A stretch of DNA of 64,000 nucleotides from Rhodococcus sp. RD6.2 (GTDB lineage Bacteria > Actinomycetota > Actinomycetes > Mycobacteriales > Mycobacteriaceae), in NCBI RefSeq assembly GCF_001040705.1, contig NZ_CVQP01000011.1, positions 124,248-188,247 on the forward strand, read 5' to 3'. The position numbers and the translations under genes were made by a program. The notes under the pieces are model-generated. The model was given only the letters and a program-made list of their open reading frames with translations. It was not told the DNA's origin and did no database searches. Position 1 is the first letter of the stretch; each line of letters starts with the position of its first letter. Below, piece by piece: positions 20,067-24,136 of this stretch.

Positions 20067-20121
20067 CCACTCGGGGCGAGTGGGGGTGGATGGTGCCGCG
20101 CGGCACGCGGTGACCTAGGGT
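20067..20121 (+). promoter_or_regulatory. Promoter region of the yjf-like cluster with operator-like palindrome
   Basis: Three elements lie in order. A 7-bp hairpin (CCACTCG/CGAGTGG, 20067-20083) may terminate acyP. A perfect 14-base palindrome GTGCCGCGCGGCAC spans 20093-20106. A TAGGGT hexamer spans 20116-20121 with the TANNNT pattern of an actinobacterial -10 box. The palindrome covers roughly the spacer and -35 area, a position where a repressor would block transcription. This is inference from layout. Confidence 0.4.
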
Positions 20122-20156
20122 CTGGTCCGATGTCGACACAGGAGGGGGTGGGTTCG

Positions 20157-20747
20157 ATGGGGCCCGAGGAACAGCACCCAGGTGCCGAAGGTGGGAACGA
20201 CGCGGGCGGCGACGACTCCGGTTCGGGTGCACAGCAGCCCGGTCGGATCCGCCGCCAGGAGCCCGGCGTGACCACGCCGCGCCCGCCCACTGTCGGCGAG
20301 GCCCGCGCCCGTGACAAGGCCCGCAAGGCCCGCGCGGAGCAGGCCCTCCTCGAGGCCGAACAGGCAGCCAAGGAAGAGGCGAAGCGCAAGACGCGGCGCA
20401 GGGCGATGATCGGAACCGTCGCCGTCGTCGGCGTGGTCGGGCTCGTCGCACTCGGCTACACCGTGCTGTCCTCGGACGAGGTGCGTGCGACCTGCATCGA
20501 CCCGGAAACCGAGGTCGTGGTCGACGACTCGTACTGCTCCAGTGGATCTCCCAGCGGCGGCGGCATGTTCATCTACGCCGGCTCGTCGTACCGCTACTAC
20601 TACGGCGGCAACGCCGGTGCGGTCGGCACCAAGGTCTCGGGCGGCACCATCGTCACCCCCAAGGGCGCCACCATCACCACGAAGTCGGGCACCACGATTC
20701 AGCGCGGCGGCTTCGGCAGCAAGTTCTCCGGAAGCACGGGTTCCTGA
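20157..20747 (+). CDS. Single-span membrane protein with Gly/Ser/Tyr-rich extracytoplasmic tail
   Basis: This 196-residue protein of unknown function has a disordered N-terminus, a charged Ala/Lys/Glu/Arg coiled-coil stretch (residues ~45-82) and one membrane helix (83-104). The tail holds Cys113 and Cys127 followed by a Gly/Ser/Tyr-rich low-complexity region (SSYRYYYGG, then SGGT and GFGSKFSGSTGS). The ATG at 20157 has a strong AGGAGGGGG ribosome-binding site eight bases upstream; an ATG at 20130 would have almost no leader. The next gene begins one base after the stop and encodes an ATP-grasp amidoligase. In enterobacteria the equivalent slot is held by YjfM/YgiB, small proteins suspected to be partners or substrates of YjfC/YgiC. 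That role here is inference. Confidence 0.75.
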   Translation: MGPEEQHPGAEGGNDAGGDDSGSGAQQPGRIRRQEPGVTTPRPPTVGEARARDKARKARAEQALLEAEQAAKEEAKRKTRRRAMIGTVAVVGVVGLVALGYTVLSSDEVRATCIDPETEVVVDDSYCSSGSPSGGGMFIYAGSSYRYYYGGNAGAVGTKVSGGTIVTPKGATITTKSGTTIQRGGFGSKFSGSTGS

Positions 20748-20748
20748 C

Positions 20749-21915
20749 ATGCGGAGAATTCGACAGCAGCCCCGGCCGGGTTGGCAGCAGACGGTGGCGA
20801 GCCAGGGCATGGTCTTCGGGACCCCGGCGCGCATGGCGGACGGCAGCGACCGGCCCTACTGGGACGAGTCCGTTCACTACGAGTTCGACATGGACGAGAT
20901 CCTCGCGCTCGAAGCCGATGTCGAGTTGCTGCACTCGATGTGCCTGAACGCGGTGGAGCACGTCGTCCTCACCGAGCGCTACCGCGACTTCGGGTTGCCG
21001 GAGTGGACGTGGGAGCCGATCGCGCGGTCGTGGCAGCGGGGCGATCCGCACGTCTACGGCCGTTTCGACCTGCGTTACGACGCGCGGCGGCCCGCGAAGC
21101 TGCTCGAGTACAACGCCGACACACCCACCACCCTGCTCGAGGCGTCGATCCTGCAGTGGCACTGGTTGACCGACACCCATCCCGGTGACGACCAGTGGAA
21201 CTCGCTGCACGAGAAGCTCGTCGAACGCTGGGCGCACATCCGCTCGCAGCTGCCCGGCAGCGAGCTGCACCTGTCGTGGTCGAGCGCCGACCTCAGCGGC
21301 GAGGACAACGTCACCGTCGCCTACATGCAGGAATGCGCTGCCGAGGCGGGATTCGACACTGTTGCCCTGGCGATCGAGGAGATCGGATTCGACGCCGATC
21401 TGCACCGGTTCGTGGATCTCGAGGAAGCTCCCATCTCGTCGCTGTTCAAGCTGTACCCGTGGGAGTGGATCCTCGACGACGACTTCGGTAGGCGCGCACT
21501 GGAACTGCTCCCCGAGACGCTCTGGATCGAACCGCTGTGGAAGGCGATCCTGAGCAACAAGGCGATTCTCGCGGTGCTGTGGGAGATGTATCCCGGCCAC
21601 CCGAACCTGCTCCCCGCGTACATCGACGACCCGCACGAGCTGACCGAGTACGTGCGCAAACCGAAGCTCGGACGCGAGGGGGCGAACGTCTCGATCGTCG
21701 GCGCGGGCATGGACACCGCGACCGGTGGCATCTACGGCGAGGAGGGGTTCGTGTACCAACTCCTCGACCCGCTCCCCGAATTCGACGGCATGCGACCCGC
21801 GCTCGGTGCGTGGATCGTCGGTGACGAGGCGGCGGGCCTCGGTATCCGGGAAACCGCAGGGCTGGTCACCGACAACGGCGCCGCCTTCGTTCCGCACCGT
21901 ATTCCCCAGTCCTGA
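20749..21915 (+). CDS. Glutathionylspermidine synthase-like ATP-grasp protein (YgiC/YjfC family)
   Basis: This 388-residue protein matches the C-terminal ATP-grasp amidoligase of bifunctional glutathionylspermidine synthase and the stand-alone E. coli YgiC and YjfC proteins (about 386 residues). Visible motifs include GWQQTVASQGM near the start, LEYNADTPTTLLEAS, the nucleotide-binding LGREGANVSIV region, and GAWIVGDEAAGLGIRE near the end. The amidase half of the bifunctional enzyme is absent. Actinobacteria of this group make neither glutathione nor typically glutathionylspermidine, so the acceptor is probably something else, possibly a protein or peptide amine. Flanked by the tailed membrane protein and by DUF350, it forms a conserved-looking three-gene unit. 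The activity is unproven even in E. coli as far as I know. Confidence 0.88.
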   Translation: MRRIRQQPRPGWQQTVASQGMVFGTPARMADGSDRPYWDESVHYEFDMDEILALEADVELLHSMCLNAVEHVVLTERYRDFGLPEWTWEPIARSWQRGDPHVYGRFDLRYDARRPAKLLEYNADTPTTLLEASILQWHWLTDTHPGDDQWNSLHEKLVERWAHIRSQLPGSELHLSWSSADLSGEDNVTVAYMQECAAEAGFDTVALAIEEIGFDADLHRFVDLEEAPISSLFKLYPWEWILDDDFGRRALELLPETLWIEPLWKAILSNKAILAVLWEMYPGHPNLLPAYIDDPHELTEYVRKPKLGREGANVSIVGAGMDTATGGIYGEEGFVYQLLDPLPEFDGMRPALGAWIVGDEAAGLGIRETAGLVTDNGAAFVPHRIPQS

Positions 21916-21955
21916 CGGCCAGTCCCCATCGTTTCGAACGAACGGAGCAACACCC

Positions 21956-22411
21956 ATGACGACTGAGGTCGTAGCCCTCGCCAGCGACTACTGGTCCACC
22001 CTCGGTCGGGGAGTGTCCGCGATCGTGCTGTACGCGATCCTCGGCCTCGCGCTGATGGTCCTCGGTTTCTTCGCGATCGACTGGACCACTCCCGGCAAGC
22101 TGCGGGCACTTGTGCGGGCCGGGAAGCCGAACGCCGCGGTCGTCACGGCGTCCGGCATGGTCAGCATGGCCCTGATTGTGGTGCTGGCGATCTACGCGTC
22201 GTCCGGCCGCCTCGTCGAAGGCCTGATCTACAGCGCCGTCTACGGTCTCGTCGGCATTGCCGCGCAGGTGATCTCGGTGCGTCTGATCGAACTGGTCACC
22301 GCCATCGACATCGGCGAAGTCCTGTCCCGCGACAAGTTCACCCCCGACGTTCTCGTCGTCGCCGCCGCGCACCTCGCACTCGGACTGGTCGTCGCGGTAG
22401 CGATCCTGTAA
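21956..22411 (+). CDS. DUF350 (YjfL-like) membrane protein
   Basis: This 151-residue integral membrane protein has four predicted helices in two internally similar pairs, typical of the DUF350/UPF0719 family. Examples are AIVLYAILGLALMVLGFFAIDW and AAVVTASGMVSMALIVVLAIY, with corresponding helices in the second half. The function of the family is unknown. In enterobacteria YjfL lies with YjfC and YjfM, as DUF350 lies here with the ATP-grasp and tailed membrane protein genes. The ATG at 21956 has CGGAG upstream. The final codons form the left arm of a perfect bidirectional terminator hairpin, an unusually compact gene end. Confidence 0.88.
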   Translation: MTTEVVALASDYWSTLGRGVSAIVLYAILGLALMVLGFFAIDWTTPGKLRALVRAGKPNAAVVTASGMVSMALIVVLAIYASSGRLVEGLIYSAVYGLVGIAAQVISVRLIELVTAIDIGEVLSRDKFTPDVLVVAAAHLALGLVVAVAIL

Positions 22412-22431
22412 TCCGGGATCGCTACCGCGAC
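22391..22431. terminator. Bidirectional terminator overlapping two convergent stop codons
   Basis: GTCGCGGTAGCGATCC at 22391-22406 pairs perfectly with 22416-22431 (16-bp stem, nine-base loop TGTAATCCG). The arms are the last codons of the DUF350 gene (stop TAA at 22409-22411) and of the convergent permease (stop TAG at 22422-22424). There is no long T-run, as is common in high-GC actinobacteria. Confidence 0.8.
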
Positions 22432-24005
22432 CCCACGACCTCCTGGATCGTGTCGGCGTCGGGGAGTCCGCGCGGGACGGTGTCGCCGTCGAAGAACGCG
22501 GGCTCCCGGCGCTGCCACCACCACATCAGCGGAAGGCCGGCGAGCATCGATCCGACGCCGAGCAGGAACACGCCGCCCACCTGCCAGTGCGGTGCGAACG
22601 GCAGCGTCCAGTACGTCTCGCCGTAGTCCGCGGCGAACGACGTCACCGCGGTCCACCCGGCCGCGAACAGCAGCATCACGCCGCCGACCGCGGGCAGGAT
22701 CACGCGCAGCCACAACGCCCGCGCACCCTGACGCACCGAGTCACGGAACAGCCAGGCGCACGCGACACCGGTCATGCCGTAGTAGAACCCGACGGCGATT
22801 CCGATCGCGGCGACCGAGTCGTAGATCAGGTCGCCCGCGGCGATGAAGTTGAACGCGATGTACAGCGCCGCCGACACCCCGCCCATCGCGAGCGTCGACA
22901 CCGTCGGGGTGAGGTATCGGGGGTGCACCGTCGCGAACGACGCGGGCAGCGCCTTGAACACGCCCATCGACAGGGTCGTGCGGGCGGTCGGCAGGATGGT
23001 GGTCTGCGTCGACGCGACCGCCGACGTGAGGATCATCAGCAGCAGGACGTGCACGAGCAGCACGCCGATCGGGCCCTCTCCGAACACGGCAGTGCCGAGC
23101 GCGGCGAAGAAGTCGTCGAAGTGTTCCGGATTCGCCAGGCCGGAGCCCTCCTCGCTGACACCGGCGAACGACTGCGCCGCCACGGTCACCAGGACGTACA
23201 GCGACACGAGGACGATGGTCGAGATCACCGCGGACTTGCCCGGGGTACGGCGCGAATCCACGGTTTCCTCGTTGACGGAGACCACGGAGTCCCAGCCCCA
23301 GTAGATGAAGACCATCAGCAGGATCGCGTTGACGAAGGTCGAGAACGAACCGATCTCGAACGGGTTGAACCAACTCCACTCCGGCGTCAACGCCGCGTCA
23401 CCCGCCCGGCCCAACCACACCCGCACCAACGCGACCACCGCGAACACCACCAGTGCCACGAATTCGACGGTGAGCAGAACCGACTGGATCCGCGCGGACA
23501 GTTCGATACCGCGGAAGCAGAGCCACGTCATCATCACCATGAACGCGACGCCGAGCGTCAGGACGGCGATGTGCGTCGGATCGTGGCCGATTCCGTCGGC
23601 ACCGAACAGCAGGAACGTGTACTGGCCTGCGACCTGCGCCATGCTCGCCATCACCAGGACGTCCGCGACCACGATCGCCCAGCCGCTCATCCAGCCCCAC
23701 GCAGGTCCGAACGCTCGGGCCGCCCAGACGAAGGTCGTTCCGCAGTCCGGGTCGACCCGATTGAGTTGCTGATAGCCGAAGGCGGCGAACAGGATCGGGA
23801 TGAATGCCAGCAGTGCGATCACCGGTGCCTGCAGGCCGACCGCTGCCACCACCAGGCCGAGGGTCGCGGCGATGCTGTACGCCGGGCCCGCCGACGCGAC
23901 ACCGATCACGACACTCGAGGTCAGGGTCAGCGCTCCCGACCTCAGTCCTTTCTCGGGGACGCCGGTCGCCGTACGTTCTGCGGTCGTCGCCGCCTCATCG
24001 ATCAC
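22422..24005 (-). CDS. APC-superfamily amino acid permease
   Basis: This transporter of about 527 residues has twelve predicted membrane helices. The N-terminal APC hallmark is present (LTLTSSVVIGVASAGPAYSIAATLG), as are TFVWAARAFGPAWGWMSGW and NEETVDSRRTPGKSAVIS, which resemble the GABA/polyamine/choline-type permeases of actinobacteria. The substrate is not determinable; amino acids or amines are likely. The GTG at 24005 (VIDEAATT) is my preferred start; a GTG at 24071 would add a Trp/Arg-rich leader. It is convergent with the DUF350 gene and divergent from the VOC gene. A polyamine substrate would be interesting given the neighbouring ATP-grasp gene, but nothing in the sequence shows it. 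Confidence 0.88.
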   Translation of the reverse strand: MIDEAATTAERTATGVPEKGLRSGALTLTSSVVIGVASAGPAYSIAATLGLVVAAVGLQAPVIALLAFIPILFAAFGYQQLNRVDPDCGTTFVWAARAFGPAWGWMSGWAIVVADVLVMASMAQVAGQYTFLLFGADGIGHDPTHIAVLTLGVAFMVMMTWLCFRGIELSARIQSVLLTVEFVALVVFAVVALVRVWLGRAGDAALTPEWSWFNPFEIGSFSTFVNAILLMVFIYWGWDSVVSVNEETVDSRRTPGKSAVISTIVLVSLYVLVTVAAQSFAGVSEEGSGLANPEHFDDFFAALGTAVFGEGPIGVLLVHVLLLMILTSAVASTQTTILPTARTTLSMGVFKALPASFATVHPRYLTPTVSTLAMGGVSAALYIAFNFIAAGDLIYDSVAAIGIAVGFYYGMTGVACAWLFRDSVRQGARALWLRVILPAVGGVMLLFAAGWTAVTSFAADYGETYWTLPFAPHWQVGGVFLLGVGSMLAGLPLMWWWQRREPAFFDGDTVPRGLPDADTIQEVVGSR

Positions 24006-24136
24006 CGGCGGGATGATAGTCGGTCGCGACTGGCGGTCTCGCCACGGTTGGAGGAGGCTGAGACCGTCCACCGGCTGCCGTCACGGCCCGGAGCAGCCAT
24101 GTCGCAATCCTTCGAGTCGCGATCGAGGAGCAGGCT

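Follow-up and report, generated by a model that had tools for sequence, protein, structure and literature searches.

The three genes studied here lie in a window of 64,000 nucleotides, the whole stretch of Rhodococcus sp. RD6.2 DNA that was analyzed, and all are read from the plus strand (Table 1). Genes A and B are separated by 1 nt, and genes B and C by 40 nt. The true start of gene A may be 20130 instead of 20157, as the ATG at 20130 aligns without gaps with the start of the gene A homologue in Rhodococcus spelaei. Comparison with the same species gave a dN of 0.21 and a dS of 0.73 for gene A (dN/dS about 0.29), 0.068 and 0.79 for gene B (about 0.09), and 0.078 and 0.90 for gene C (about 0.09). 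By these values all three genes look coding and under purifying selection. A sequence-only reading of this DNA had described the genes as one cluster, and their families, contiguity and coding constraint are confirmed. Its interpretation is supported in part and sharpened: the proposed substrate gained a defined site, while a promoter palindrome and the constancy of DUF350 did not hold.

Table 1. Features of the locus, with positions in the window.
Feature	Position	Strand	Description
Gene A	20130 (or 20157)..20747	+	Membrane protein; conserved N-terminal segment, one predicted TM span, two-Cys/YYYGG ectodomain, tail TIQRGGFGSKFSGSTGS
Gene A C-terminal tail TIQRGGFGSKFSGSTGS	20694..20744	+	Conserved; proposed ligase substrate
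Gene B	20749..21915	+	388 aa; ATP-grasp ligase of YgiC/YjfC type, without amidase domain
Gene C	21956..22411	+	151 aa; DUF350 (YjfL-like) membrane protein
16-bp perfect hairpin	22391..22431		Ends of gene C and of the convergent permease gene; probable terminator

An APC permease gene at 22422-24017 is convergent to the three genes. The hairpin found where gene C meets it has arms at 22391-22406 and 22416-22431 and a folding energy of -39.4 kcal/mol (z -7.65), lacks a T run, and is probably a terminator; a simple terminator scan gave no hit and an Rfam scan returned nothing. Upstream of gene A, the 14-base palindrome at 20093-20106, which had been read as part of a promoter region, is present at chance level. 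The window holds 9 palindromes of this length, compared with a mean of 10.75 in shuffled sequences, and this one is absent from 169/169 related loci. It is therefore ascribed to chance and rejected as a regulatory site. A scan for sigma-70-type promoters gave no match; a single promoter shared by the three genes would be conjectural.

Gene B matches PF03738 as a full-length stand-alone domain (E 4.7e-151), with no other Pfam match in its 388 residues, and so no N-terminal amidase domain. The closest solved protein is E. coli YgiC (7uk8, E 1.5e-91, residues 1-384). E. coli YjfC (7uk6) is matched at E 3e-78, trypanothione synthetase at E 2.4e-38 and GspSA at E 1.2e-30, and the score against the NCBIfam GspSA equivalog is 131.8 bits, with a cut-off of 882. 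The Pfam match and the nearest structures thus uphold the earlier assignment to a YgiC/YjfC-like enzyme that lacks the amidase half. Across 21 ligases including YgiC and YjfC, R105, D107, E120, N122, D124, T125 and P126 are invariant, as are K271, K304, E310, G311, R367 and E368, and gene B carries the NADTP signature. The R, D, E and N among these invariant positions correspond to residues that serve catalysis and metal binding in GspSA. In RefSeq both E. coli enzymes carry the name peptide--spermidine ligase, and one article calls them peptidylpolyamine synthetases, citing Pederick 2023 (PMC12568646). Gene B would accordingly be named a ligase of the YgiC/YjfC type by homology, and a spermidine-to-peptide activity would be carried over from the E. 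coli annotation.

Gene A encodes a single-span membrane protein with two Cys and a Gly/Ser tail, as had been read from its translation. The N-terminal segment is basic and contains a conserved stretch, QEPGVTxPRPPTVxEARARDKAR, in which Q34, R42 and E48 are invariant in 35 aligned sequences (alignment A4; the window and 34 of 41 listed relatives). The single predicted span follows KRKTRRR, and the ectodomain holds the two Cys and SYRYYYGG before the tail begins. PF06693 (DUF1190) gave no match to gene A at E 0.1, with the E. coli controls YgiB and YjfM matched at 2.9e-55 and 2.9e-17. Six other actinobacterial tail proteins were also without a DUF1190 match, five searched as the last 95 residues and one as the last 137. 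Gene A does carry the feature that we propose here for the YgiB/YjfM kind, namely an RGG[FY]G motif close to a C-terminus that ends in a small residue, in a protein encoded beside the ligase.

A PF03738 ligase is present in 90/394 genomes of the class, and in 90/90 of these the ligase gene is adjoined by a gene for a tail protein, defined as one that ends in G, S or A and has a GGFG-type motif within its 60 C-terminal residues. These 90 loci are the window and L033-L121, with the tail ORFs of three (L046, L079, L092) set by hand. The tail gene is directly upstream in 82 loci, upstream with a DUF350 gene between in 7 (L080-L086) and downstream in 1 (L079). That homologues of the three genes might rarely be adjacent, a possibility raised with the earlier reading, is thus contradicted for genes A and B (90/90), with DUF350 detected in just 45/90. 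The strict motif RGG[FYLMI]G occurs in 68/90 class tails, and the remaining 22/90 have variants such as RGGAG, KGGFG, TGGFG, RAGFG, RKGIG and RGGFF. Among 10,051 ORFs of at least 60 residues from 92 loci, 74 have the strict motif in their last 45 residues. Of these 74, 72 lie 5' of the ligase (68 class loci and both E. coli loci), in a zone that holds 543 ORFs and was defined after the data had been seen.

The pairing extends to co-occurrence across genomes. A tail profile (A2), built from the 95 C-terminal residues of gene A and of 24 of 86 listed tails of its relatives, matched 47/394 genomes at E 0.01, and 47/47 of these have the ligase, compared with 0/304 matches in genomes without it; the test is one-way, as the profile missed 43/90 ligase genomes and the search scored just 13 candidates per genome. 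In genus g2, ligase and tail are both found in six genomes and neither in at least 14 listed genomes. A further 80 named loci, the best 80 of 575, have the tail in 80/80 (79 by the rule; L132 by eye, ending in Thr), but they are closely related to the class sample and therefore not independent. In the wider phylum the ligase was found in 7/149 genomes, and the one outside the class (G513) has an adjoining tail protein. Loci of Rhodococcus, Nocardia and Tsukamurella have an acylphosphatase gene immediately 5' of the unit, and some of them also have smc on its downstream side; mycobacterial loci have neither at the unit, which shows that the unit has moved. What is new here is that the ligase is steadily partnered by the tail protein, and in particular by its C-terminus.

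Two loci deviate from the usual arrangement. At L090 (G301:C1:3552143-3553305, family f21) the ligase is split into two overlapping pieces, with the tail gene upstream. In genome G315 there is an additional gene for a tail protein, on the minus strand (L238:5619-5993), the product of which has a single predicted span and ends in VIQRGGFGRSGGGGGG. The ligase motif was not found in the 11 kb of this locus, and the adjoining ORF is J-domain-like by eye. The extra gene may represent a mobile element that carries the substrate only; a search for this tail-only copy in phages gave no match.

The extreme C-terminus of the tail is constrained even though its distance from the motif varies. After identical last-20 stretches were removed from the 90 class tails, 80 distinct tails remained. 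The penultimate residue is Gly in 72/80 (background 0.36) and the final residue is G, S or A in 80/80; in 18 tails of other lineages the penultimate residue is Gly in 14/18 (background 0.26) and the last is G or S in 18/18 (background 0.52), with p-values that are nominal binomial ones, as the tails are Gly/Ser-rich and the sequences related and uncorrected for phylogeny. By a simple rule, the anchors of the 90 class tail proteins are lipobox-like in 61, TM in 27 and left unassigned in 2. The tail is thus constant while body and anchor vary. The tail proteins of L053 and L056 have Tyr where similar relatives have the lipobox Cys (ALSGYSSEPDRRC).

The same tail is found outside actinobacteria. 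In E. coli, YgiB contains TVTRGGFG and ends in SRSMGG, and YjfM ends in TVSRGGYGRSSSARGHWGG. We picked 19 further loci for variety, 12 of 60 plasmid matches listed (165 records) and 7 of 30 phage matches listed (132 records), and 17/19 have a tail partner, or 16/18 outside actinobacteria. Two of these 16 tails, in Virgibacillus (L227) and Trichormus (L228), are weak. A lipobox-type pattern is present in the first 45 residues of 15/16 of the non-actinobacterial tail proteins. Plasmid loci with a tail include those of Rhizobium, Pseudomonas, Azospirillum, Sulfitobacter, Asticcacaulis, Acinetobacter and Deinococcus, and phages with both tail and ligase are vB_OspM_OC, Motura, Phosso, 44RR2.8t and LAh_6, with one gene between the two in OC and two in 44RR2.8t. 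The locus filed as Acinetobacter phage MD-2021a (L235, CAKLQH020000026.1) has guanine deaminase and hpt as neighbors and looks like a bacterial chromosome; true phages with a tail are therefore 5/6 of those fetched. DUF1190 matches the tail proteins of OC, Phosso and 44RR2.8t, scores below cut-off in Motura and MD-2021a, and gave no match in the Deinococcus and Acinetobacter tail proteins. No visible tail gene lies beside the ligase in L220, from a Photobacterium plasmid, or in L233, from phage DSS3_VP1, where the locus ends at the end of the record.

We lean toward a reading, which we hold to be somewhat probable, in which ligase B caps the C-terminal carboxylate of the gene A tail with an amine. 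The tail C-terminus is proposed as the substrate because of its pairing with the ligase, its small last residues and its fixed motif. The directly supported part consists of the families, the adjacency, the co-occurrence and the tail constraint. Adjacency, phylogenetic profile and the constrained C-terminus also back the earlier suggestion that the tailed protein is a peptide substrate, which we still infer. GspSA-type enzymes join a C-terminal Gly carboxylate to a polyamine, and if gene B works like glutathionylspermidine synthetase, the carboxylate should come from the tail and be attacked by the amine. Gene B would activate this carboxylate as an acyl phosphate, and joining of the activated tail to the amine would produce a membrane-anchored protein with a C-terminal amide, probably of a polyamine-type cation. 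Recruitment of the ligase may depend on the RGGFG motif, on the conserved segment at the N-terminus of gene A or on both, and the terminal Gly-[Gly/Ser] would be the site of modification. Like the reaction, its timing and the amine, the purpose is a matter of conjecture, and could for example be envelope stabilization.

The main difficulty is topology, as the tail is predicted to be outside and the ATP-dependent enzyme inside. With a ligase of predicted cytosolic location, the tail would have to be modified before its translocation or during export. The extracytoplasmic prediction for the tail also fits the main rival, in which the tail protein docks the ligase at the membrane or regulates it, and the ligase acts on another peptide, such as a small diffusible one or a precursor of the wall peptide. 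Such a role agrees with the conservation of the predicted cytosolic segment of gene A (Q34, R42, E48) and with the two loci that have a ligase and no visible tail (L220, L233). However, the lipoprotein versions keep the tail and yet, judged by anchor type, would be without the cytosolic segment. Docking also needs no particular end, whereas in actinobacteria as in other lineages the final two positions are more constrained than tail composition would predict. We consider it unlikely that the tail protein serves as a dock for a different substrate.

Gene C matches PF03994 (DUF350) above the cut-off (E 4.1e-23, 82.4 bits compared with 26), in agreement with the earlier family assignment. DUF350 was detected in 45/90 class loci, 38 after the ligase and 7 between tail and ligase, a count that is a lower bound because the DUF350 model, built from actinobacterial sequences, scored E. 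coli YjfL at 0.012 with a limit of 0.001. In family f21 it was detected in 0/33 loci. DUF350 is thus unsupported as an obligate part, and under the capping reading it would be an auxiliary membrane partner that is dispensable. When 6,993 ORFs, taken from up to 169 loci, were grouped by greedy clustering, a DUF350 cluster (63 loci) and tail-protein clusters emerged. No conserved protease neighbor was noticed, with most of the top 25 ORF clusters unannotated, and this bears on a further alternative, in which gene A is a precursor and the tail is modified and then cleaved to release a small secreted peptide-amine. A low-complexity tail after a short conserved region would suit a precursor, and other systems are known in which ribosomal peptides are modified by ATP-grasp enzymes (PMC8939145). 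The anchor and the two-Cys part are, however, conserved too, and we regard cleavage to a free peptide as distinctly improbable.

Four polyamine-synthesis families (AdoMet_dc, Spermine_synth, nspC and OKR_DC_1) were searched for in the nearly complete Rhodococcus sp. RD6.2 genome without a match, and each of them was matched in some of the control genomes. Self-made spermidine is therefore doubtful in this strain. The same absence weighs against gene B making a small thiol-polyamine resembling glutathionylspermidine. The Pfam family name would suggest such a product, as would the PF03738 domain and conserved residues shared with GspSA and trypanothione synthetase, but gene B is closest to YgiC/YjfC and not to GspSA, whose amidase domain it lacks and from which it differs in that the proposed substrate is a protein. 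Its motif is NADTPT, compared with NADSAS in trypanothione synthetase, and a small-molecule enzyme would leave the tail unexplained. We judge a thiol-polyamine product to be highly improbable. AdoMet_dc was rejected as a companion of the ligase, being weakly associated with it (9/90 ligase genomes and 9/304 others, nominal p 0.009).

In Achromobacter phage Motura (L230:1803-4628), genes for an annotated homospermidine synthase with saccharopine-dehydrogenase domains, the tail lipoprotein and the ligase are directly consecutive, which fits a polyamine as the amine. An APC permease beside the ligase could possibly serve amine uptake. In Pseudarthrobacter such a gene (L236:4679-6163) lies directly 3' of the ligase. 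As a specific partner the permease was rejected, since that of the window matches general transporter families only, far below their cut-offs, and relatives of it are near the ligase in 8/169 loci.

The locus shares with E. coli YgiBC and YjfMC the ligase family, a tail protein adjoining the ligase and an RGG[FY]G tail that terminates in Gly-Gly, and DUF350 is also present at the yjf locus. RefSeq gives the E. coli neighborhoods as ygiB-ygiC and yjfI-yjfJ-yjfK-yjfL-yjfM-yjfC, in which the ligases adjoin DUF1190 proteins. The gene order is A-B-C here and yjfL-yjfM-yjfC in E. coli. YgiB and YjfM are DUF1190 proteins, whereas gene A is without this match and TM-anchored by prediction, and AdoMet_dc and Spermine_synth both match in E. 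coli and were not found in Rhodococcus sp. RD6.2. The Rhodococcus genes are therefore of the YgiBC/YjfMC kind, but with a TM anchor, without a DUF1190 match and with four polyamine-synthesis families not found.

The parallel to E. coli-type clusters drawn earlier agrees with published work, as operons in which the ATP-grasp ligase is joined by DUF350 and DUF1190, and by PspA or polyamine genes, have already been reported (PMC11237479). Those with PspA and CesT resemble the present locus in the ATP-grasp enzyme, DUF350 and a small anchored protein, and differ from it in that neither a PspA nor a CesT domain was found among the five neighbors scanned here. Section 19 of that article mentions neither a shared C-terminal motif nor a TM-anchored actinobacterial tail protein. 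Our literature search, which covered sources other than Iyer 2009 and Pederick 2023, returned no paper that links the tail to the ligase and none that names a natural peptide substrate of YgiC or YjfC; those two works may already propose DUF1190 proteins as the substrate.

A broader version of the capping proposal is possible but doubtful. It would make C-terminal amine capping of envelope-anchored proteins a general modification in bacteria and phages, with a portable RGGFG...G-[GS] tail on lipoprotein or TM anchors and, in this Rhodococcus, an amine other than self-made spermidine. Collectively, the joint occurrence of tail and ligase across several phyla and phages provides a specific substrate candidate and a specific residue for these enzymes. 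If the proposal is true, bacteria would make envelope proteins with amines bonded covalently to their ends.
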